From IMG/VR virus record IMGVR_UViG_3300047453_000317, positions 1-21,803 of that record: DNA of 21,803 nucleotides. One strand, written 5' to 3'. Both the position numbers and the translations under genes were made by a program. The first letter of the stretch is position 1. Each line of letters starts with the position of its first letter. The DNA is from a virus. Below, in pieces: positions 3,832 through 21,226 of the stretch. The notes under the pieces are model-generated. The model was not told the origin of the DNA and did not search any database. It saw only the letters and a program-made list of their open reading frames with translations.

Positions 3832-4311
3832 CTACCCACGTTGCAAGTGACGAACTGGGTTTCTCCCTCCCGACATTCTCCTGTCAGCAATCCAATCCAA
3901 ACCCTTCTTTAATGTCTTTAACTTGTCAGGACTATCAGACACATCCCAGTCGTGCAAGACAACCTCCTCAACAATATAGCTGGCGTAGTGACCGAACCGC
4001 TTGGTCACCAGCCCAATAGTCTTGGAGTACCTCATAAGCTGATCGCTCTCAAGCCCGCCCTTTGACATACCTCCTGACGCCCTTGGCTCGTAGTTTAAGG
4101 GCTTGGCAAAGATGCCCGCCTGAGATGCCTGACTTAACAGATACTCAGCGGCCTGATGCTGGGCCAGTGTCAGCAAGCCATTCATAAGCATGCGGTCTAC
4201 AACTGTCTGGTCCATCACCTTGGCGCGGGGCAGGCTACCACCCTCAACCATCACGCTGTGGCGTTTGTGTATCTCTGGCGTACCCAGATCAGTCGGTGAT
4301 TTATAGGTCAT
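3832..4311 (-). CDS. DUF6456-like phage protein (159 aa)
   Basis: The central part (GLLTLAQHQAAEYL, then a Gly-rich stretch and YSKTIGLVTKRFG) resembles the pattern of DUF6456, a small family found in phages and alphaproteobacteria whose role is not established. The match is by eye and moderate. ATG at 4311 is preferred because GGAG lies 8 nt upstream; a GTG at 4320 would add three residues. The gene overlaps the end of the helicase gene by 11 nt (20 nt with the GTG), so it is probably co-translated with the replication genes. The C-terminus is basic (WIADRRMSGGRNPVRH). Confidence 0.55.
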   Translation of the reverse strand: MTYKSPTDLGTPEIHKRHSVMVEGGSLPRAKVMDQTVVDRMLMNGLLTLAQHQAAEYLLSQASQAGIFAKPLNYEPRASGGMSKGGLESDQLMRYSKTIGLVTKRFGHYASYIVEEVVLHDWDVSDSPDKLKTLKKGLDWIADRRMSGGRNPVRHLQRG

Positions 4312-5074
4312 CGAAGTCACTCCAGTCCCTTTGATTCCCTTTCAAGCTGGACGGCAACTCAACTCGCGGAGTGAACTGCTGATACCTTCCTGTTGGCAAG
4401 TCATAGCTAAGAGCCGACACGCCCTGCTGTCCTACCCACTTGAACCTAGACTTCCAGCAGTGTATTTCCACGCACTCATCTGTCCGATGAACTGTGATAC
4501 CAAGGTCAGCCTTTGCAAACCATGCCGCCGATCCAGATATGTTCATGCCTTTCGGTACAGAATAAGTGCCGTCCTCTCGCGGGTACATCTTCTGAGGGTG
4601 GGCAACGAACCAGACGTGAATGCCGTGTGCCTTGGCAAACGATGTGATCTTGCTGAGCATGTGAGAGATGCCAGAATGTTCTTCTTGTCCTGACTGCTCG
4701 ATGTAATTGTATGGGTCTATCAGCAGTCCGCGCACACCCAGACGCATCACCGCCTGCTTGGTCCGATCTATCACGCTGTCGATGGTTGCCATGCCCCCAT
4801 CCTTGGACTCCAGAAAAACAAAGTGCTCGTTGATAAACTCAACCGCTGTCTCTAGCTCATCCTCTGTCATGCGAGGAGTAAGGCCGTCATAGAATGGCTT
4901 GCCTGTAATCTTCTCGGCTAGCTTGGCGATGTGCATGTGCGGTGGGTTTTCAAAAGAACAGACAGCAAACTTCCATGACTCATTCTGCGCTAGGTTTATC
5001 ATAATCTGATCGATGAACTCAGACTTGCCAGAGGATGGCATGCCGGTCACAATGGATAGCTGACCCTCAGCCAC
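4301..5074 (-). CDS. DnaB/Twinkle-type replicative helicase domain (C-terminal part of a split primase-helicase)
   Basis: The protein unwinds DNA ahead of the fork in T7 gp4-like systems. The first usable start is GTG 5074. Residues 10-19 (TGMPSSGKSE) are Walker A; LLIDPYNYIE is the Walker B strand; WFVAHPQKM matches motif H4; KSRFKW fits the arginine-finger region. Starting at 5074 drops the conserved linker encoded at 5075-5119 (RGSSTGFPAIDELFT), which normally precedes this domain. That linker is in the same frame, immediately after the TGA that ends the primase. The complete helicase segment is therefore most likely 4301-5119, joined to the primase by readthrough, or the product of a gene broken by one base change. 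The upstream Shine-Dalgarno for GTG 5074 is weak (GACGAG). Confidence 0.85.
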   Translation of the reverse strand: MAEGQLSIVTGMPSSGKSEFIDQIMINLAQNESWKFAVCSFENPPHMHIAKLAEKITGKPFYDGLTPRMTEDELETAVEFINEHFVFLESKDGGMATIDSVIDRTKQAVMRLGVRGLLIDPYNYIEQSGQEEHSGISHMLSKITSFAKAHGIHVWFVAHPQKMYPREDGTYSVPKGMNISGSAAWFAKADLGITVHRTDECVEIHCWKSRFKWVGQQGVSALSYDLPTGRYQQFTPRVELPSSLKGNQRDWSDFDDL

Positions 5075-5119
5075 TGTAAATAACTCGTCAATAGCAGGGA
5101 AGCCTGTCGATGAACCTCT

Positions 5120-5122
5120 TCA
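5120..5122 (-). other. In-frame TGA between primase and helicase
   Basis: The minus-strand reading is GGC CAC TGA AGA GGT. The frame upstream (primase) and downstream (helicase linker) is identical and open on both sides, so one codon divides a 582-codon frame, close to the 566 residues of T7 gp4. The TGA is followed by A. No strong downstream hairpin is evident. TGA ends many other genes here, so the code is not reassigned. Confidence 0.9.
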
Positions 5123-6049
5123 GTGGCCGTTGGAATATATCTCTCTAATGCTATCGAGATAGTCTGATGCGCCATACACACCGGACAGTGGCACCGGCTC
5201 GGGGTTGTCAAACAGGCTATGAGTTTCGCCCTCACCCAACTCCCTGACCGCATCATTACCGTCTTTAATATCCTCTGGGAACTTAACCCGCCAGCACTTA
5301 GCTCTGCCTACTCTGCGGGCTATCTCCTCAGCAAGAGCCTCACCTTGCACGTCGTTGTCTGTTGCCAGCACGACACGCTTGCATTGCTCAAGGCGCTCCC
5401 TCTCCTCCCAGATATAGGCAAACTTGCCGTCCTCCTCTGGGCTTACCCGATTCTGACTTACCTTTGCCGGCGCTCCATTTGGGCAGGAAACCGCCTTGAT
5501 TCCGACGCTAGCCAGAGCTATGACATCACACTCCCCCTCAACTATCGTCAATTCATCATCGCTTGCACCCACGTTTTCGATACCGTAGAAGCTACGGGGC
5601 GCACCCTCGCAGGTAAAAAACTTCCCGTCCACGGATCGCCACTTAATCGCTGATGGATTTTCTCGACTGCCGTATATAAATCCTACTGCCTGCTTCTGCT
5701 CTCCAGCAAACCATCGCTCACCGGTAGTCATTGCAGGTAACTGGTCAAGACTATCAAGCTCTACGCCTCGTCCATGAAAAAAATCTTTGATCACATCTAC
5801 ATTGTAATTTAATTGCGTTGGTATCTTTACGACCTTCTCTGGTTTGCTCACTCGATATTCCTCCCAAAACTTTTTTCTTTTGACAGCCCCCGACAACCCG
5901 CAGTGGTGACACATAAACACTGAGTGGTCGTGGTGAACAGTTATGCTAAATGTTTTCTCGTTTTTCTTTTTTCGCTGGTCTCCGCACTCTGGGCACCTAG
6001 TCCTAATGTTGTCCCCAAAGCCCAAGACGAACTCATCTATGGCCTGCAT
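5120..6049 (-). CDS. Zinc-binding/Toprim DNA primase (N-terminal part of a T7 gp4-like primase-helicase)
   Basis: This protein should make RNA primers at the replication fork. Residues C19-x2-C22 and C47-x2-C50 form the template-recognising zinc ribbon. A linker follows, then a Toprim domain with VEGECDV (acidic E and D) and ATDNDVQGEA (the DxD pair) in the C-terminal half. The frame ends at TGA 5120-5122 and continues in frame into the helicase (see that entry). The start ATG at 6049 has only a modest upstream AAAGG. The 5' side is the repeat-rich non-coding region 6050-6234, which may drive its transcription. The domain call is secure. Whether the stop is real, leaky or an error is open. 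Confidence 0.9.
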   Translation of the reverse strand: MQAIDEFVLGFGDNIRTRCPECGDQRKKKNEKTFSITVHHDHSVFMCHHCGLSGAVKRKKFWEEYRVSKPEKVVKIPTQLNYNVDVIKDFFHGRGVELDSLDQLPAMTTGERWFAGEQKQAVGFIYGSRENPSAIKWRSVDGKFFTCEGAPRSFYGIENVGASDDELTIVEGECDVIALASVGIKAVSCPNGAPAKVSQNRVSPEEDGKFAYIWEERERLEQCKRVVLATDNDVQGEALAEEIARRVGRAKCWRVKFPEDIKDGNDAVRELGEGETHSLFDNPEPVPLSGVYGASDYLDSIREIYSNGH

Positions 6050-6211: not shown

Positions 6212-6235
6212 CCCCACCACCAGTGGGGTTTTTTT
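6212..6235 (+). terminator. Rho-independent terminator on the plus strand, orphan
   Basis: CCCCAC (6212-6217), a 5-nt loop, GTGGGG (6223-6228) and seven Ts (6229-6235) form a textbook intrinsic terminator for plus-strand transcription. The genes on both sides run on the minus strand, so no annotated plus-strand gene ends here. It overlaps the stop codon of the minus-strand gene at 6235 at its edge. Confidence 0.8.
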
Positions 6236-6477
6236 CATTCCAACTCATCCATAAGCATTTGTGCCACGACACGTTGCTCTGTTCTGCTGAGCAATAGCAT
6301 CTCATCGAGCGCGTCTTGAAGCCCGAAAGGATAGCCGGCAATGGAACAATGCTTGAGGAATGCTGGCGACTGCAAGTATTTAATTGCATCGTCTCTGAGG
6401 TGCGGTTGGTTACTAATCAGATCCTTGATCGCCTGACCAATCACCTTCGCATAAACTGTCTTGTATATTCCAGACAC
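6235..6477 (-). CDS. Hypothetical phage protein downstream of rusA (80 aa)
   Basis: No family is recognised with confidence. The frame starts at GTG 6477, inside the end of rusA (65-nt overlap). A later in-frame GTG at 6444 would shorten the overlap; neither has a strong Shine-Dalgarno. The product reads as several helices: an Ala/Ile/Lys helix, a segment AIKYLQSPAFLKHCSIAGY, and a C-terminal amphipathic helix ending MLMDELE. The middle resembles small phage proteins that follow resolvase or regulatory genes. It ends at the plus-strand terminator. Confidence 0.5.
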   Translation of the reverse strand: MSGIYKTVYAKVIGQAIKDLISNQPHLRDDAIKYLQSPAFLKHCSIAGYPFGLQDALDEMLLLSRTEQRVVAQMLMDELE

Positions 6478-6823
6478 TGATTACTGCTCTTGGGTCATCT
6501 TTGTCAACCCCACCCCATATTATGTGTTTAACCTTGACTTGCCTGTCGTTTTTATAAACCAGTCCCTGCATGCAATCTAGTATTAAAGACTCATCCAGAT
6601 CAGGTCTTCGGCTAGCATAATAGATTGTGATTTTTACCGCTACATCTTTTTCAAAAAGCGGATCAATCTTTTTGCACTGCTTCTCAAAGGTCTTCACATA
6701 GTCCAGTGCCTTCTGTGATTTAATGAACAGCGGGCGCCCAGTCTTACTCTTCACTAGCCTTCTACTGTTAGCCTTACTGCATGGCTCACCATATATAGTT
6801 ATGTTCAATATATTATTTGACAT
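6413..6823 (-). CDS. rusA: RusA-family Holliday junction resolvase
   Basis: RusA enzymes are small Mg-dependent dimeric endonucleases that cut four-way DNA junctions made during phage recombination and replication. The protein has the usual opening (LNITIYGEPCSKANSRR), the middle FIKSQKALDY helix, and the diagnostic acidic segment YYASRRPDLDESLILDCMQG, whose Asp residues bind the catalytic metal, followed by VYKNDRQV. Its length of 136 residues is normal for the family. ATG 6823 has a strong AGAGGGG Shine-Dalgarno. It is the first gene of the minus-strand replication group and lies opposite the plus-strand recombination cassette across a short divergent region. Confidence 0.88.
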   Translation of the reverse strand: MSNNILNITIYGEPCSKANSRRLVKSKTGRPLFIKSQKALDYVKTFEKQCKKIDPLFEKDVAVKITIYYASRRPDLDESLILDCMQGLVYKNDRQVKVKHIIWGGVDKDDPRAVISVWNIQDSLCEGDWSGDQGSD

Positions 6824-10656: not shown

Positions 10657-11385
10657 ATGGATGAGGTCTTAATGGAGCAGGAAAATCCTAGAAGAGGACG
10701 GGCAAATGAGGAGGTGTTTTTTACAGGACCATCTGCCTCATACGATGATTTTATCGGGATGTGGGATACATCCTATGACGGTCAAGAGCTTATAGATTAC
10801 TGGAACCTGTGCAACAGCTTAGGTGCGACTATTCCCAGAAGGTCATTTGGTGCAGATCCAGAAGATAATAAACAAAGATCCCACATGGGAGGCGGCGATG
10901 GCTATATGCCATTTTCAAGGACAGATAGCATGGTCACCCTAAGTCCTGATAGCATAGAGTACATAACCTCACCAAATGTCCCCATTGATGCAGTTGCTTT
11001 TTATGGCCATTTGCGAAGCTTAAACGAACTTATTAGCCAGTGCTTGGCTCAGTATATAGATCAGTTTGAGGGGTTATCTGGCTACGCACTGAACCTAGAC
11101 TGCCCTAACATTCAACGGACAAAACCTACCGAGGGGTATCACGCTTGGCACTGCGAGGATGCAGGTTATGGCGTGGGGAAAAGGGTTCTTGCTTATATGC
11201 TGTACTTAAATGATGATTTTGATGGAGGGGAAACCGAATGGCTCTATCAGAAGCGAAGGGAAGCACCTACTGAAGGCCGCATGGTGATATGGCCCGCTGG
11301 CTGGACTCATGTTCATCGCGGACTTCCCCCTCTCAATGGCGAAAAATACATCGTAACCGGATGGGTTTCGGCGATAAGGGGATAG
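10657..11385 (+). CDS. 2-oxoglutarate/Fe(II)-dependent oxygenase, prolyl-hydroxylase-like (242 aa)
   Basis: The double-stranded beta-helix core is visible in the C-terminal half. YHAWHCEDAG supplies the iron pair H165-x-E167. VLAYMLYLNDDFDGGETEW is the core strand with the GGE turn typical of P4Hc-type enzymes. PTEGRMVIWPAGWTHVHRG gives the distal His (H218 or H220). K230 (GEKYIVTGW) can hold the 2-oxoglutarate carboxylate. The iron site uses Glu where Asp is usual, a recognised variation. The substrate is unknown. ATG 10657 and ATG 10672 are both possible starts (GAGG favours the latter). A second enzyme of the same superfamily follows immediately. Confidence 0.78.
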   Translation: MDEVLMEQENPRRGRANEEVFFTGPSASYDDFIGMWDTSYDGQELIDYWNLCNSLGATIPRRSFGADPEDNKQRSHMGGGDGYMPFSRTDSMVTLSPDSIEYITSPNVPIDAVAFYGHLRSLNELISQCLAQYIDQFEGLSGYALNLDCPNIQRTKPTEGYHAWHCEDAGYGVGKRVLAYMLYLNDDFDGGETEWLYQKRREAPTEGRMVIWPAGWTHVHRGLPPLNGEKYIVTGWVSAIRG

Positions 11386-11387
11386 AC

Positions 11388-12098
11388 GTGAACGAATCTA
11401 TATATGCCGAGCTTGAAAATCCATGCACTCCCCAGTACCTAGACTTAAAGAGGAAGCTTTGCTTTGTTGAGCAACCAGTGATGTTCGGCCCAGCAATGAC
11501 ATCTCCGTCAATAATAAAAGATAATTTAGCTTCTCAGTTACATAGTAATTGGGAGGCTAAGTTACCCACCCCCTTTCCAGATGATCAGAGGCTGATGTGG
11601 GACAAGTCATATCTGGACTCATTGCAGTTTACCAAGACACTGGTGGGGAGAAATGAGCTAGACCGCACCCCAGTAAAGGGCCAAGTGATCAGTCCTTTGG
11701 GGTATCAATTAAAGATGGTTGTACGAGACATCTTAAAGCACAATGACATGAGGCTAGGCGACCTATACAGAGGCGGGGCAAACCTAACAAGGCACAGCCC
11801 ATTCCTCGCTAGCCCGCACACTGACCACACATTCCCACATGTAGGCATGTTGATATATTTGAATAACTGCACTGGAGATACTGTGATTTGTAATGAAAGG
11901 GCGAGTGACCTGAGCGAGAGTGAAGGGGGGTCAGAAAGCTTTGTTCAACTGGAAGATACCACCGTCGGAGCGAAGATTACTCCAGCAGAAAATAAAGTGA
12001 TTATTATGGATGGATCTCGTTATCACTATAACTTATTGCCGAGCAAGGAAGAGGGCGGGCGCATGGTGATTGTGGCTACCTTTAGCCTGCGTCAGTGA
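11388..12098 (+). CDS. Second 2-oxoglutarate/Fe(II)-dependent oxygenase (236 aa)
   Basis: The iron motif is H144-x-D146 (SPHTDHTFPHVG), the core strand is MLIYLNNCTGDTVI, the distal iron ligand is H213 (GSRYHYNLLP) and R225 (GGRMVIVATF) fits the 2-oxoglutarate-binding Arg. The first 120 residues are not recognised. GTG 11388 is preferred: AAGGGG lies just upstream, two bases after the previous stop. An in-frame ATG at 11361 would overlap the preceding gene. The two oxygenases are clearly different in sequence, so this is not a recent duplication. The gene ends convergently with the minus-strand gene at 12092. Confidence 0.72.
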   Translation: MNESIYAELENPCTPQYLDLKRKLCFVEQPVMFGPAMTSPSIIKDNLASQLHSNWEAKLPTPFPDDQRLMWDKSYLDSLQFTKTLVGRNELDRTPVKGQVISPLGYQLKMVVRDILKHNDMRLGDLYRGGANLTRHSPFLASPHTDHTFPHVGMLIYLNNCTGDTVICNERASDLSESEGGSESFVQLEDTTVGAKITPAENKVIIMDGSRYHYNLLPSKEEGGRMVIVATFSLRQ

Positions 12099-13540: not shown

Positions 13541-16500
13541 CTAGAATGTACCTTGAAAGAATGGAGCGTCGGCTAGCTCCTTGAGCCTCGGGATAACCTT
13601 TAGGTGCTCATTCATTTGAGCGTCCAAGTCTTCGATCATACGATCCTTTACCTCGGGGTCCATGTCAGTCCTAGTGATTGCCCGCTTATCTTCTCTCAGC
13701 CGATCAAGTGATCGCTTGATGTTATACACTGGGCCTTTTAAGTCAAGCATGTGTTGCCGCGCTGACAGGTAGGCTTCTAGCTCATCTACACGCCCTGCTT
13801 TCTGCAAGGCGTTGACCGTAGTGACCACTTCCTTCACGTCATTGTATAGCTCATACGCATCCGTCCTGAGACCTGAGCCTTCTTTCGGGGCAAAGAACCT
13901 TTTAACTACTGGGTACTCAAAGACAGTCTTGGAGGGTCGCTTGTCTTCACCACCCGCTACCTGACGGTATGCCGCGTCAACCGCAGAAATAACGTAAGCG
14001 CCAAGGGTGCCTGTGTAACCAGAGAGTATGTGATCAATCTTCATGGGGCTAATGTTCAACTTCTCGCCCAAGTCTTTGGCCATCTGCGTGTTGTACTCAC
14101 CACCTGTCAAGCCTGCGGTCATGCCACCATCTGCATCCACATAGTATGGAACGATGGGGCGTCCAGTAAACGAGTTATGATTAAATGCAACTTCAATCAG
14201 CGGGGCAACCGCTTGGATTCCCAGAGGGTTTACCTCCAGCGTTGATACCAGCCCTCGTTGTAGCGTCTGCCTAAGCTCTCTGCTTGACTGGTCACCATAC
14301 CTTTTCGCTAGTACCGCCTCTGGGATAGTCTTAAATATCAAGCCAACTTCAAACGGAATCGGGAATTTAAAAGGCACACCGCTGGCAGTAGGTACCAGCC
14401 AGTTTAACTCTCTGACGTGCTCGTCTTGCTCGTTGTACCAGTCTTCATCACTGACAAGTAAGTAGTAGAGTGATGTCAGCCCTACCAAGATTGCACCACG
14501 ATAGGCTAGCCTTAGCTGGCCCGCGCTTGCCGGCTCATCCCTGCGCGTGGTGTAGTTACCTGTTGCCGAGCGTACAAATACATCCAAGCCTTGGAATCGT
14601 GCGTTAAGGAATGGTATTGCCGCTGTCAGCACACGAGCAAACGGATTAGAGCCTCTTCGTGCAAAGTTAATAATCTCCATAGCTTGGAACGCGGCCTCTG
14701 CCTCACTGCCTGTCCTAGCTAAAACGTCATTGTATACAGCGTTACGGGTAGAGGCGTCGGATGCAGTGGTTGCGTTGCCAGCCCAGTCCCATATTCGTGT
14801 GAACATGTTAAGTGGAGTCATAGACTCTGTGCGTCTCTTGTTCTCCGCTTCGTAGAACTTAACGATGTCCTTCTTGTCTATTGCAAAATCATAGCCGCCC
14901 ACAACACCGAGCTTCTCCAACCGCTCAATCCCATCGCCTAATCCTTTCACCGTGCCTATGACAGGGGCGAACGATGCGCCAGATGTGGTCCATGTGGAGA
15001 GGGTATCTCTCATCATGTTGGCTATCATAAAGCCGGGGTCTCTGGTGATAAGCTCTCGGAGTACGTTGGATGGCATGCCGAGATACTTAGTGGCCGCTTG
15101 CTCAACGTAGCCCGCCCCCTGCGTGGTCATCGAGTCGTAGATAAGGGTGTCATCTAGCTCAAAGCGCACAAGGTTGCCGTTTACCTTGAACTCAATGTCG
15201 GTTGGCCCGCGTTTTTTCTTGAGGCTAACTTGACGGGCGATGCCCATCTTCTGCATGTCCCGAGTGATACGTTGCTGGGCTACGTTCTTCATTCCCATGT
15301 CAACTGCCGCGCTCATGTTGAGCACAACAGATTCAATCAGTCCGACATCAACAGCTTTTTCGCTACCTTGATATGCGACGAACTCTTTCATGCGAGTCAT
15401 ATCGCCAAACACGCTCTTAGCTACTTGGGGGAGGGCATCTTCGCTCACGCCTGTGCGATAAAAAGGAATGTAGGAAGACTTCTTCCAGACCTCAGCGGTG
15501 TCCTCGTTTAACACACCCGTAGCCTTGAGGAAGTCGATGGTCTTTTCATTGTAGGCAGACCATGTGTCATGCCATTTCTTGACGGGGTTGTAACCATCGG
15601 CATCAGTTAGAGACTCAACCTCTGCAAGAATTTCTCGCTTAGTCTTTGCGTCTACCGGAGTCAACTGGCCTCTTGCTGACAAGTAATCACCACGCTTAAC
15701 CATTGCATAGGCTTGAGCTATCTTCCGCAGGTCGCCAACATCCTTGTTGTATATCAGTGACATTACACCAATGAGTCCACGATAGGTGTCGCCGTCGTGC
15801 GTAAACTCTTCGACCCTTGTAAGTCCATCTCTGTATACAGGCACCCCGTACTTCACAGCGGAAGCAAGAATACCTTTAGACCTGTCGGAGAATAAGGCGG
15901 CGGCTATGGCGCTAGACTCAGCTTGAAGCTCCCTTAGCTCAGGCACCTTTTGATAATACTTTTCAAGGGCCGCATAGCGAAACAGAGCGCCAGCTTTTAG
16001 CTTGGTCAGGATCGTGCCAAGAGACCCAGTGTTGGTGGCGTCCATGAACACCCGACCGTTTGGAGCTTCGCGCTCTGGACCTCGTGTTAACTTGTCAACA
16101 GCAGGGATGTCGCCCCGGACAGAAAACAATGGCTCATCTGGTTCAAGCGCCGCCTCTGGATTCTGTGCTATATATTGTGCGTCGGGGGATGCCTTGACGC
16201 TGAAGCGAGGGACGCCCTTAACATTCTCAGCAATGCTAGCTATATTTTTATCTACAGCTTTATCTGCCTGCTCTGGAGTGATGGTCTGACGGGGTGACAA
16301 AACCCTTGTCTGAGTGTCTTTTGTTATCGGCTTACTGCTTACCGCAACTGACTCGTCTGAGATCAAGGGCTGATTAACAAATACAACCTTGCCAATCCGC
16401 TTATCGTTTACTCTAAACCCGATATAGCCAGCATTGTTTAATGCCGCTAGGGTGTTATCCCAGTTGAGGTTGCCATCTGGGTTCGTAGCGACCAACCCAT

Positions 16501-19500
16501 AAGGGTCTGTATTTAGAGGGTATACAAGAAGGGGGTCAACCGAGAAGGTGCTCTCTACATTCCCGACGACCGCCTCGTTCCGATACCCGTCTTCAGTCGC
16601 TTTGACGATCCCGAAATACGTTCCTTCTGGGGCGTACCGTCTGCCCCTGTCTGCTCCCCTGCCAGCCATCTTCGGGTCTGTTCTGGCAATCCGCTTGCCT
16701 GAGAAGTGGCTGAGTTGGAGCTTCCCGCTTGCGTCGATTGCGCCTTCAAGCCCTTCTTGAAAAACTGATGAATCTGCTCTTCTAGGGTCACTTTGTCGTG
16801 CCTCCTCCGACACCCATAGCGGGAGTAACCCCACCTTTTGGTCGGCATATATAGTGTCTGCGCCATTAGCCTTGGCATTAAATGCCGCGTCAGGCCCAAA
16901 GTTTACCCAAGAGTTTTGCCCTCGGGTCTCGCTTGTCATTGCTCTTCTGGCTAAGGTTGAGTACATCGCGGCATGAGATTGCCATGCGTTTTCCTCACCT
17001 CTTGCTCGGAAGCCTACACCATTTTTGATGTGACCGAAATAGTCGTGAACAACACGGAACACGTCATTGGCTAGCATCGGATCGCCATCTGCTGTTCTGT
17101 ACGGGGTCTCTCTCAGCATAGGATTGCTCGCCAAGTCTTGCTGAGTAATACCGTCCATTCCGTAGCCGTCTCGCGTGGAGAACACATACATACGATTGTT
17201 GTTAATAACATCTAGGATGGCATTGCGTGGATTGCCGTATGGGTCATCGCCTTTGATGAACTGCACGTTCAACCCTGACCTGAGTATCTCCTCATACTGA
17301 GCGAGAGTTTCATCAATCATTGCGTTATACGCGGCCTTGACCTCTGGGTCATTAGGCGCATCCTCCATAAGATCGTACTCGGCGGCAATCTTACTCGCCA
17401 TCTTCTGATCAATCGGAGCGTATTGCGTCAGAGGCTCATAGCCCATTCCAGCTTTTTCAGCGTAGCGACGTGCGGCATCTACTGCTGGCTGGTGATAGCC
17501 AAACTCAACAGACTGCCCGTCAACGTCAAATGCCTCGGGCATTCCCTCCAGCCGACGCAAGCTAAACATAATGTCGTCTTCGTATTTGGCGCCCTCTGGT
17601 ACAGAGGTGGGATCATACTCAGCAAACACACCCTTAACATTTGACGCATCGAACACAGCTATGCCAGTTGGGTCGGTGGGACGAGATGCTGTTCCTACTG
17701 TCTCAAAATCAAGATAAGAATCAAACCCTGCGGCTTGGATGAATGGAGCCAGCTTCTCCAGATCCTCAAAGTTAAGCCGCTTGGCCAACTTAGACTGACC
17801 TTTCCGAGCAAAAAACTTATCATTGCCTTTTCTACGAGACAAGATTGCATCAGCTTTTTCGACAGCAAGATCGCCTGAGTCCAGAATTTCTTGCTCGGTG
17901 AACTCAAACGTAGACACCTTCGACCGCAACAAGTCAGACGCAGTTTTATGACCACCTCCATTACGACCCTTGGCCACTTCTTGTAATACCGCATCCATCA
18001 TCTCTGGGTTGCGATAATCAAAGGTGTTGTTTACCCGTAGAAACACAGGGTATACCGTGCCCGCCTCGCCTTTTAGACTGATCAGGGGAACAAATCCGCT
18101 AGCAAATTCTGGGTTAAGCGTGAAGTGGCCCGCGATAACCCCCTTGGCGTTCGGGATTCTGGATCGGAACTGCTTGATACTGGGAGATGCTGTGCCGTGA
18201 TAGTAAACAGTCGATGTATCAAACCCTTGGTCTGCGGCTCTATCCAGCCTTAGACTGAACATGGACTCATCAACTACTTCGGGGGCGTCATCTAGATCCT
18301 GCCTTACCTTATTGATAACTTGTCGTGCAGTAAGAGGGCGCCCGCGCTTACCGGTCTCTAGCCCTATGTCCTCTCTGGTGATGCCGCGTTCTGCAACCTC
18401 CTTGGCCTTTACTTCGGTGTACAGCGGAGTCCTGATCACGCCCCGCTCACGACGGCCTACGGCACCAGACTGAACTTTATCGACTAGCTCCTTGAAGGAG
18501 GCCACATCGTTGTCCTGAGCAACGCCAACCAGCCCCTTGAAGAAGTTAATAATCTTGTTGAAGATAGACCTTGGCTTACCTGTCGGCTTGCGAACATCCC
18601 CATCCATAACCACGCCGGTAGTCAAGGCGTCGGATATCATCTCGGCGATAGCCTCTTCCTGAGTCCTGACGGCACTGATATCACCGTAGTTATCTACCGC
18701 CCACTGACCGTAAGTCTTGCCTTCTCCCGGCTTCTGATACTTGCGACTCAGGCGCTCCAGTAAGCTGTACTCGCTTGCTGTAAACAAGTCCATAGCACGG
18801 AGTGCATGCAAGATTTCGTGATTCATAATCTTAGCGACAGCTTGCTCGTAAGACATGCCTGCATTGACATCGGCCATAACCGCATCAAGGCCAACCTGAA
18901 TCACCTTTGCCCCTGCCTGTGCAGAGCCAGCGACCATAGCGGCCTTACCGTCTTTGTCTACAGGCCGGTTCTTTAATGGATCTATATATATGTTGCCGGC
19001 AGAGTCTCTCTTTGCGGTGCCTACCTGCTCAACCATACGGGTGGCATACTGATCGTCTATGCCAAACTTCTTGAGGGCATCACGCAACTGCTGGCCTAGA
19101 GCGGATTGATCTAGGTCATAAGGCACAAGCTCCTGCCCTTCGGGGACACTCTCTTCCGCTCGCTCTATCGGTCGTGCTGTACGCTGAGCCTCGGCCTCTA
19201 CCCGATTAAGCTCTGCCTGAGCGGGAAGCTGTCCCGTCTGCCCAAACGCGGCGGCTTCAACAGCCAAGCGAGATGGTTGCTCAACCTCAATCTGGCGGCG
19301 AGCAATACGCACAAGCTCACCATCTGGCGTCTTAGCACTAAAGTCAGGGATCTGGGTAGCTTGTTCTTGGAAGCTAGGTAGCTTGCGAATCCTGTGATAA
19401 AGATAGCGCCGCTCGTTAGCTGATAGGTTGGATAGAGGATTCTTCTTGGAGGGGACTTTGCCTATGATCCTCTTGACCATTCCGCGAAATGCTTCGGAGT

Positions 19501-21226
19501 CTATAGAGGCGGCTATTCTTTTTTGAGCCAGCAAGTCCTCCATGACACGCTCAGATGACAGAGGGTTGTCAAAGGAGCTACTCAGTGATTGTAAGGCTTG
19601 CTGTCTACCAAGCGCCGGTTGCCTTGGTCTGGTGGGGTCCGGGGCTGTAGTGGGAGTGGCCGGCTCGGGTGCACCAAAGGCTAAGAAGTCAGCATCCTTT
19701 GCCGCGAGAACGTCGCCTAGATTACCAAGGTCGCCTCTGTTTGCGGCGCGCACTTCTTCCAGTGTGAACGTGAGGCTCTCGGCCTCTCCTCGGTCAGCCT
19801 GCTGTCGATTGATTACCCTAGCAATGTCCTTGCCTGTTGCAAGGTTGGCGTCTTCCGCGCTAATGATACGCTCTTGAGGCGACGGGATTGACCTGCCCAG
19901 CCTGCGTACCTCATCTGCCTGTTGCTCTGTGTACTCAATGCCAGAGTTCTCGACAAGGTACTCAACCTGCGCGGACTTAGCTAGCTCCTGACTTGCTCCT
20001 GTTAGTCTGTTGGATAACTCTTGAGCCAGCACTGGGTCATCAAACACAGGGCCAAACTGCTCGCCATCCACCTCAGCAAACGACTGGTTATCGAGGGAGC
20101 CAACAGAGAACACCTTGCCTACAGGTAGGCGAGAGCCAAGTCTGGTGACAACCTGACCGGCTATCTCTTCGACGGGTAGGGTTGCATCAACGAGGGTGGG
20201 ATCAATTGGATCTTCACCAATATCTGAAGGTACTTCTTCTGCACCTTCGGCCTCAAGGGTAGCATCCAGCCCCTCTCTGCGAGCTTGCTCTCCCGCATCT
20301 TCGTTGGCTCGGAGTCTCTGTTCGTCAGCGATCTCCTCTTCGGTCATGTCTTCTATGGGCTTTGGCGCCCTGCCTTTACGTCCTTTAAGGGGCGTCTGAG
20401 CAAGGCCAATAGCTAAGTCAAGAACAGCACCTGCTCCGCCACCCAGCGTAAAGTCATCCATGACGCTATCAGCAATCTTGCGGTCAGGATCGTATATGGC
20501 AAGCGTTGCAATGTCTCTCGCAATACCCTGCCCTACTTCCTGCACACCTTCTTGAAGACCAGAAGCAATCATAGACTCCATGCGTCTAAGAATAGGGTTA
20601 GCTTGCGGGGTGTCAAAGAATCCGCGAGGCAGTCCCTTGAGAATTCTGGTGGGAATACCGAGCCTCTCCAGCATACCAAGGCCAACGTCCGCGCCCTTTG
20701 CAGTCAGTCGCTCTGCCGTGGAGAGTGCTTCGCCTGTACGCTCTTCGTACTCAGCACGATCCGCGCCGCCTTCAGAGACAGCAGGACCAATCATTGTGGC
20801 AAGCTGTGTTGCTCGCGCAGGCAGACCACCGGGGAGAAACAGGGATGCAACCATTGGCCCCATCTCTCCGACAACGCCGCCTAGCTGTGCACCATAGTTG
20901 TCATCGTAAGCGGGGTCATACCCTAACGTGTCAGCAACAAACGCATCAAAGTCGCTTTGGACTTCACGAGCCGCCTCGTCATCAACGCCGGGAATTAACT
21001 CAGCAAGACCTGTACCAACGCGGGCCGTACCTGTAGCTAGGCCACCAACCAGACGCTTGCCTGCCTCACCAACAGAACCAAGGAAGGTCGTGTCGTCCGC
21101 AAACAAATCACCAAAGTCAGACTCTACTGCCAGATTGCCATCTATCGCAATTCGAGCAAGCTCTTTCTGGCTTATGTCATCTGGAACATTTGTAATTAGC
21201 TGGCCATTCGGCAGGCTTACGTCCAC
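13541..21226 (-). CDS. Giant polyvalent internal virion-type protein (2561 aa)
   Basis: Such proteins are thought to be carried in the virion and injected with the DNA. The start is GTG 21226 after AAAGGG. Residues 1-30 (MDVSLPNGQLITNVPDD...) match a short N-terminal module common in phage internal proteins. Residues 803-807 (HEILH) are a zinc-metallopeptidase HExxH motif. Residues about 1008-1012 (YYHGT) plus AGHFTLNPEF look like an ADP-ribosyltransferase-type fold. H1394-D-Y-F-G-H1399 and GEENAWQSHAAMY mark a conserved but unnamed phage domain. SHFSG at H1507 with Gly/Arg-rich DPKMAGRGADRG may be a second ART-like segment. From about 1705 to the end the sequence fits large polyvalent domain LPD38, with a hydrophobic helix near 2245. 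FS(L/V)(R/K) motifs at 990, 1221, 1675 and 1701 separate the modules. No lysozyme motif is seen. Confidence 0.75.
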   Translation of the reverse strand: MDVSLPNGQLITNVPDDISQKELARIAIDGNLAVESDFGDLFADDTTFLGSVGEAGKRLVGGLATGTARVGTGLAELIPGVDDEAAREVQSDFDAFVADTLGYDPAYDDNYGAQLGGVVGEMGPMVASLFLPGGLPARATQLATMIGPAVSEGGADRAEYEERTGEALSTAERLTAKGADVGLGMLERLGIPTRILKGLPRGFFDTPQANPILRRMESMIASGLQEGVQEVGQGIARDIATLAIYDPDRKIADSVMDDFTLGGGAGAVLDLAIGLAQTPLKGRKGRAPKPIEDMTEEEIADEQRLRANEDAGEQARREGLDATLEAEGAEEVPSDIGEDPIDPTLVDATLPVEEIAGQVVTRLGSRLPVGKVFSVGSLDNQSFAEVDGEQFGPVFDDPVLAQELSNRLTGASQELAKSAQVEYLVENSGIEYTEQQADEVRRLGRSIPSPQERIISAEDANLATGKDIARVINRQQADRGEAESLTFTLEEVRAANRGDLGNLGDVLAAKDADFLAFGAPEPATPTTAPDPTRPRQPALGRQQALQSLSSSFDNPLSSERVMEDLLAQKRIAASIDSEAFRGMVKRIIGKVPSKKNPLSNLSANERRYLYHRIRKLPSFQEQATQIPDFSAKTPDGELVRIARRQIEVEQPSRLAVEAAAFGQTGQLPAQAELNRVEAEAQRTARPIERAEESVPEGQELVPYDLDQSALGQQLRDALKKFGIDDQYATRMVEQVGTAKRDSAGNIYIDPLKNRPVDKDGKAAMVAGSAQAGAKVIQVGLDAVMADVNAGMSYEQAVAKIMNHEILHALRAMDLFTASEYSLLERLSRKYQKPGEGKTYGQWAVDNYGDISAVRTQEEAIAEMISDALTTGVVMDGDVRKPTGKPRSIFNKIINFFKGLVGVAQDNDVASFKELVDKVQSGAVGRRERGVIRTPLYTEVKAKEVAERGITREDIGLETGKRGRPLTARQVINKVRQDLDDAPEVVDESMFSLRLDRAADQGFDTSTVYYHGTASPSIKQFRSRIPNAKGVIAGHFTLNPEFASGFVPLISLKGEAGTVYPVFLRVNNTFDYRNPEMMDAVLQEVAKGRNGGGHKTASDLLRSKVSTFEFTEQEILDSGDLAVEKADAILSRRKGNDKFFARKGQSKLAKRLNFEDLEKLAPFIQAAGFDSYLDFETVGTASRPTDPTGIAVFDASNVKGVFAEYDPTSVPEGAKYEDDIMFSLRRLEGMPEAFDVDGQSVEFGYHQPAVDAARRYAEKAGMGYEPLTQYAPIDQKMASKIAAEYDLMEDAPNDPEVKAAYNAMIDETLAQYEEILRSGLNVQFIKGDDPYGNPRNAILDVINNNRMYVFSTRDGYGMDGITQQDLASNPMLRETPYRTADGDPMLANDVFRVVHDYFGHIKNGVGFRARGEENAWQSHAAMYSTLARRAMTSETRGQNSWVNFGPDAAFNAKANGADTIYADQKVGLLPLWVSEEARQSDPRRADSSVFQEGLEGAIDASGKLQLSHFSGKRIARTDPKMAGRGADRGRRYAPEGTYFGIVKATEDGYRNEAVVGNVESTFSVDPLLVYPLNTDPYGLVATNPDGNLNWDNTLAALNNAGYIGFRVNDKRIGKVVFVNQPLISDESVAVSSKPITKDTQTRVLSPRQTITPEQADKAVDKNIASIAENVKGVPRFSVKASPDAQYIAQNPEAALEPDEPLFSVRGDIPAVDKLTRGPEREAPNGRVFMDATNTGSLGTILTKLKAGALFRYAALEKYYQKVPELRELQAESSAIAAALFSDRSKGILASAVKYGVPVYRDGLTRVEEFTHDGDTYRGLIGVMSLIYNKDVGDLRKIAQAYAMVKRGDYLSARGQLTPVDAKTKREILAEVESLTDADGYNPVKKWHDTWSAYNEKTIDFLKATGVLNEDTAEVWKKSSYIPFYRTGVSEDALPQVAKSVFGDMTRMKEFVAYQGSEKAVDVGLIESVVLNMSAAVDMGMKNVAQQRITRDMQKMGIARQVSLKKKRGPTDIEFKVNGNLVRFELDDTLIYDSMTTQGAGYVEQAATKYLGMPSNVLRELITRDPGFMIANMMRDTLSTWTTSGASFAPVIGTVKGLGDGIERLEKLGVVGGYDFAIDKKDIVKFYEAENKRRTESMTPLNMFTRIWDWAGNATTASDASTRNAVYNDVLARTGSEAEAAFQAMEIINFARRGSNPFARVLTAAIPFLNARFQGLDVFVRSATGNYTTRRDEPASAGQLRLAYRGAILVGLTSLYYLLVSDEDWYNEQDEHVRELNWLVPTASGVPFKFPIPFEVGLIFKTIPEAVLAKRYGDQSSRELRQTLQRGLVSTLEVNPLGIQAVAPLIEVAFNHNSFTGRPIVPYYVDADGGMTAGLTGGEYNTQMAKDLGEKLNISPMKIDHILSGYTGTLGAYVISAVDAAYRQVAGGEDKRPSKTVFEYPVVKRFFAPKEGSGLRTDAYELYNDVKEVVTTVNALQKAGRVDELEAYLSARQHMLDLKGPVYNIKRSLDRLREDKRAITRTDMDPEVKDRMIEDLDAQMNEHLKVIPRLKELADAPFFQGTF

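Follow-up and report, generated by a model that had tools for sequence, protein, structure and literature searches.

A single in-frame TGA in a T7/Twinkle-type primase-helicase gene of a phage is very probably accidental

The window analysed here is the whole stretch of 21,803 nucleotides from positions 1 to 21,803 of the IMG/VR virus record IMGVR_UViG_3300047453_000317. On its minus strand, from 6049 to 4301, lies a frame of 582 codons for a primase-helicase of the T7/Twinkle type, which contains one in-frame TGA and is made up of the following features:

5120..6049, minus strand: primase half, with zinc-binding and Toprim domains and a linker helix, running from ATG 6049 to the TGA (309 aa)
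5120..5122, minus strand: in-frame TGA, in a column occupied by glycine (GGN) in 26 of 26 closely aligned relatives
4301..5119, minus strand: helicase half, an SF4/DnaB-like RecA core with the Walker A motif GMPSSGKS, 272 codons in the same frame
5072..5074, minus strand: GTG, the first common start codon in frame past the TGA, opening an ORF at 4301..5074 for a helicase core of 257 aa

The helicase half terminates at a TAA (4301-4303), and the TGA, at residue 310, is the sole stop separating the two halves. Translation of the ORFs thus agrees with the original prediction that both halves share one frame with only TGA 5120-5122 between them, and that their joined length is 582 codons (309, the TGA and 272).

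Both halves carry the domains expected of this type of enzyme. The primase half presents zinc-binding cysteines in a CPEC...CHHC pattern followed by a Toprim domain, which matches the Toprim families with E = 4e-10, and the helicase half matches DnaB_C with E = 3.5e-10. The two halves also match consecutive stretches of one PHROG primase/helicase family, phrog_239, and these domain and family matches together exclude a chance arrangement of frames. The same order of Toprim primase, linker and SF4 helicase is found in T7 gp4 (PDB 6n7i, 5ikn, 1q57), to which the profile of the relatives aligns over positions 140-559 (E = 7e-9), but the gene of this contig differs by its TGA just past the linker helix. 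Similarity to the mitochondrial helicase Twinkle is more distant, with weak sequence matches from the helicase half (8e2l, 7t8b), and Twinkle is intact. The zinc and Toprim domains and the SF4/DnaB-like core with its Walker A motif are thus all present, whereas one open frame joining both domains through a linker helix is seen in 75 of 76 relatives and is interrupted by the TGA in the contig. The gene is an ordinary fused phage primase-helicase of the T7/Twinkle type, and we file the present copy as a broken or misread member of the T7 gp4/Twinkle-type family.

The position of the stop relative to the linker was deduced from a structure model of an intact relative (L004), of which the mean pLDDT is 65.5, with low confidence at the junction. 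In this model a linker helix at residues 294-307, around DYLDSIREIYSN and ahead of the TGA, is followed by a loop (308-318) and next by the helicase core, a layout consistent with the collinear alignment to T7 gp4. The TGA is thereby predicted to lie in the loop between linker helix and helicase core. The original prediction had placed the linker after the stop; the residues found there, RGSSTGFPAIDELF, instead open the RecA-like helicase core.

This arrangement bears on the idea that two proteins are made, with termination at the TGA and a separate helicase start downstream, for instance at GTG 5074, whose 257-aa frame retains Walker A. Its product would, however, lack both the start of the core and the linker helix, which stands before the stop, so that the original statement that this GTG yields no full helicase holds. 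Both T7 gp4 and Twinkle require the linker to form hexameric rings and to act as helicases (PMC7231222). Moreover, inspection by eye revealed no clear ribosome-binding site for GTG 5074, and a split at the TGA site was seen in no relative among the 76 that cover the gene. A downstream restart was therefore ruled out on the position of the linker helix, and the production of two separate proteins is very improbable. T7 itself obtains its short gp4 form from an internal start, which leaves out the zinc domain, and not by separation of primase and helicase.

Scans of viral contigs recovered close relatives with up to 92% identity in the helicase half and 88% in the primase half, the three closest intact ones being 90-92% and 86-88% identical, respectively. 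Primase-helicases of uncultured phages from IMG/VR such as L002, L003 and L004, 90-92% identical in the helicase half, represent the same gene, with 582 codons and the same neighbours, but have GGG or GGA (glycine) in place of the TGA of the window. In the codon alignment this column is invariant (GGN in 26/26 relatives), and a sense codon occupies the position in all 79 viral contigs in which the junction is visible. Similarly, two relatives found when bacterial and archaeal genomes were scanned, both metagenome-assembled genomes, have a sense codon there. The comparison of homologues at 5120-5122 that the original prediction had called for thus gave a sense codon throughout (79/79 viral contigs and the two metagenome-assembled genomes), and the TGA is not conserved. 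No near-identical contig was found by an exact search in which the position of the stop codon was left free, in a collection that may lack records very close to the window.

In a wider search, 75 of the 76 relatives covering the gene had an uninterrupted fused frame. The lone exception, L028, is frameshifted by a deletion of one base in its primase frame (at about position 2818), and the frame is intact in its sibling L025, 99.4% identical. As this deletion is missing from so close a sibling, isolated breaks of the primase-helicase in such contigs can be given a rough base rate of about 1 in 76, that is, about the one-percent level.

Comparison with related contigs also brought out features elsewhere in the window. 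On the minus strand at 6413-6823, the gene for a RusA-like resolvase has a TGG in place of the TAG stop of its three closest relatives and is extended by 8 codons; the position of its stop varies in more distant relatives too, and an ORF at 6235-6477 overlaps its end. On the plus strand, the region 10657-12098 contains a gene for a 2OG-Fe(II) oxygenase and a neighbour matching phrog_274, a family there named DNA endonuclease V. Neither gene has a match in five related contigs, although these otherwise mostly follow the gene order of the window in this region, and the pair therefore looks like an inserted cassette. Finally, a single frame of 2,561 codons (13541-21226, minus strand) shares about 32-48% identity with the corresponding frames of related phages, whereas identity is mostly 70-90% in the replication genes.

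Selection on the primase-helicase was estimated separately for each half. Against the closest relatives, dN/dS was 0.04-0.07 for the primase half and 0.02-0.06 for the helicase half, compared with 0.02-0.09 for intact pairs. The window retains each of the 148 helicase residues that do not vary among the relatives, with about 349 nonsynonymous sites in the corresponding codons. The branch dS was taken as 0.3-0.65, a value assumed from pairwise estimates near saturation; had the helicase half drifted neutrally over more than 1.3-2.9% of such a branch, at least one change would have appeared at these sites with 95% probability. As there is none, neutral drift lasting longer than about 1-3% of the branch is excluded at the 95% level, and if the helicase is dead, the TGA could be no older than that. 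The low dN/dS and the retained invariant residues rule out a decaying gene. Since selection on the helicase half is intact, three readings are left for the TGA: an error, a very young change or a stop that is read through.

Another explanation considered was a code in which TGA encodes tryptophan, or glycine as it does in Gracilibacteria and Absconditabacteria. The TGA does sit at a glycine position, and reassignment of TGA to glycine is known in bacteria (PMC8629427). However, among 7,077 codons the census counted a single internal TGA, compared with 536 GGN and 82 TGG, and TGA terminates 16 of the 28 genes. The code of this genome is standard, with TGA serving as an ordinary stop. Codes 25 (TGA as glycine) and 4 (TGA as tryptophan) are refuted by this ratio of one internal to 16 terminal TGA, and recoding is left with a negligible probability.

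Readthrough of the UGA in the phage would yield primase alone along with a smaller quantity of the full primase-helicase. UGA is generally the leakiest stop in many bacteria, and the base after the UGA of the primase half is A. The intact helicase half, its purifying selection and the absence of substitutions at the 148 invariant positions are in keeping with this reading, and efficient readthrough in the lineage would likewise preserve selection on the helicase. Intact selection is nevertheless explained equally well by the readings that do without readthrough. No stimulatory RNA structure was detected in the 80 bases past the stop, where folding compared with shuffled sequences gave z = -0.05, and the window, a fragment of the genome, contains neither an Rfam match nor a tRNA gene, including suppressors. 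Coding selection is thus present on both sides of the stop, as expected of programmed readthrough, but the stop is shared by no relative and neither a stimulatory structure nor a suppressor tRNA accompanies it. The replicative helicase would then probably be made in small amounts only, and our literature search found no paper on readthrough in phage primase-helicases. We therefore consider readthrough improbable. Slightly less probable still is that the TGA is real and leaky in this lineage, so that most ribosomes would stop after the linker helix, releasing a primase that includes it, and a minority would go on to the full primase-helicase. Among the three options of the original prediction, a recent nonsense change, for which GGA had been one of the proposed source codons, and an assembly error both fit the glycine codon and intact fusion of the relatives, whereas readthrough as a means of setting the ratio of two forms gained no positive support.

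The TGA is thus very probably an accident, namely a single-base nonsense change, confined to one contig, in a conserved glycine codon of an ordinary fused gene, in the loop between linker helix and core. We consider a base error in the metagenome consensus a fairly probable source, and a real nonsense mutation of very recent origin in the sampled phage a possible but rather unlikely one. A phage truly stopping at this TGA would make the primase half only and would have no working helicase unless the UGA leaks. A family profile, run against the window and against five related contigs that may be incomplete, detected no further copy of the helicase. Loss of the sole helicase of this type that was found would presumably be lethal or close to it, and this shifts the balance towards an error. 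Changes specific to the window near the TGA include G-to-T substitutions that replace Ala by Ser on either side of the stop; a signature of oxidative damage was considered and set aside, as the spectrum across the gene is mixed. The fused gene, its TGA, the conserved glycine and preserved selection in each half are thus shown by the data, while we infer that the TGA is without function, and the choice between error and mutation is drawn in the same manner.

In the normal relatives, a single fused protein unwinds DNA and lays down primers. The locus is accordingly best annotated as a single primase-helicase that carries a probable error or recent nonsense change, neither as two genes nor as a case of readthrough, and its importance beyond annotation is small.
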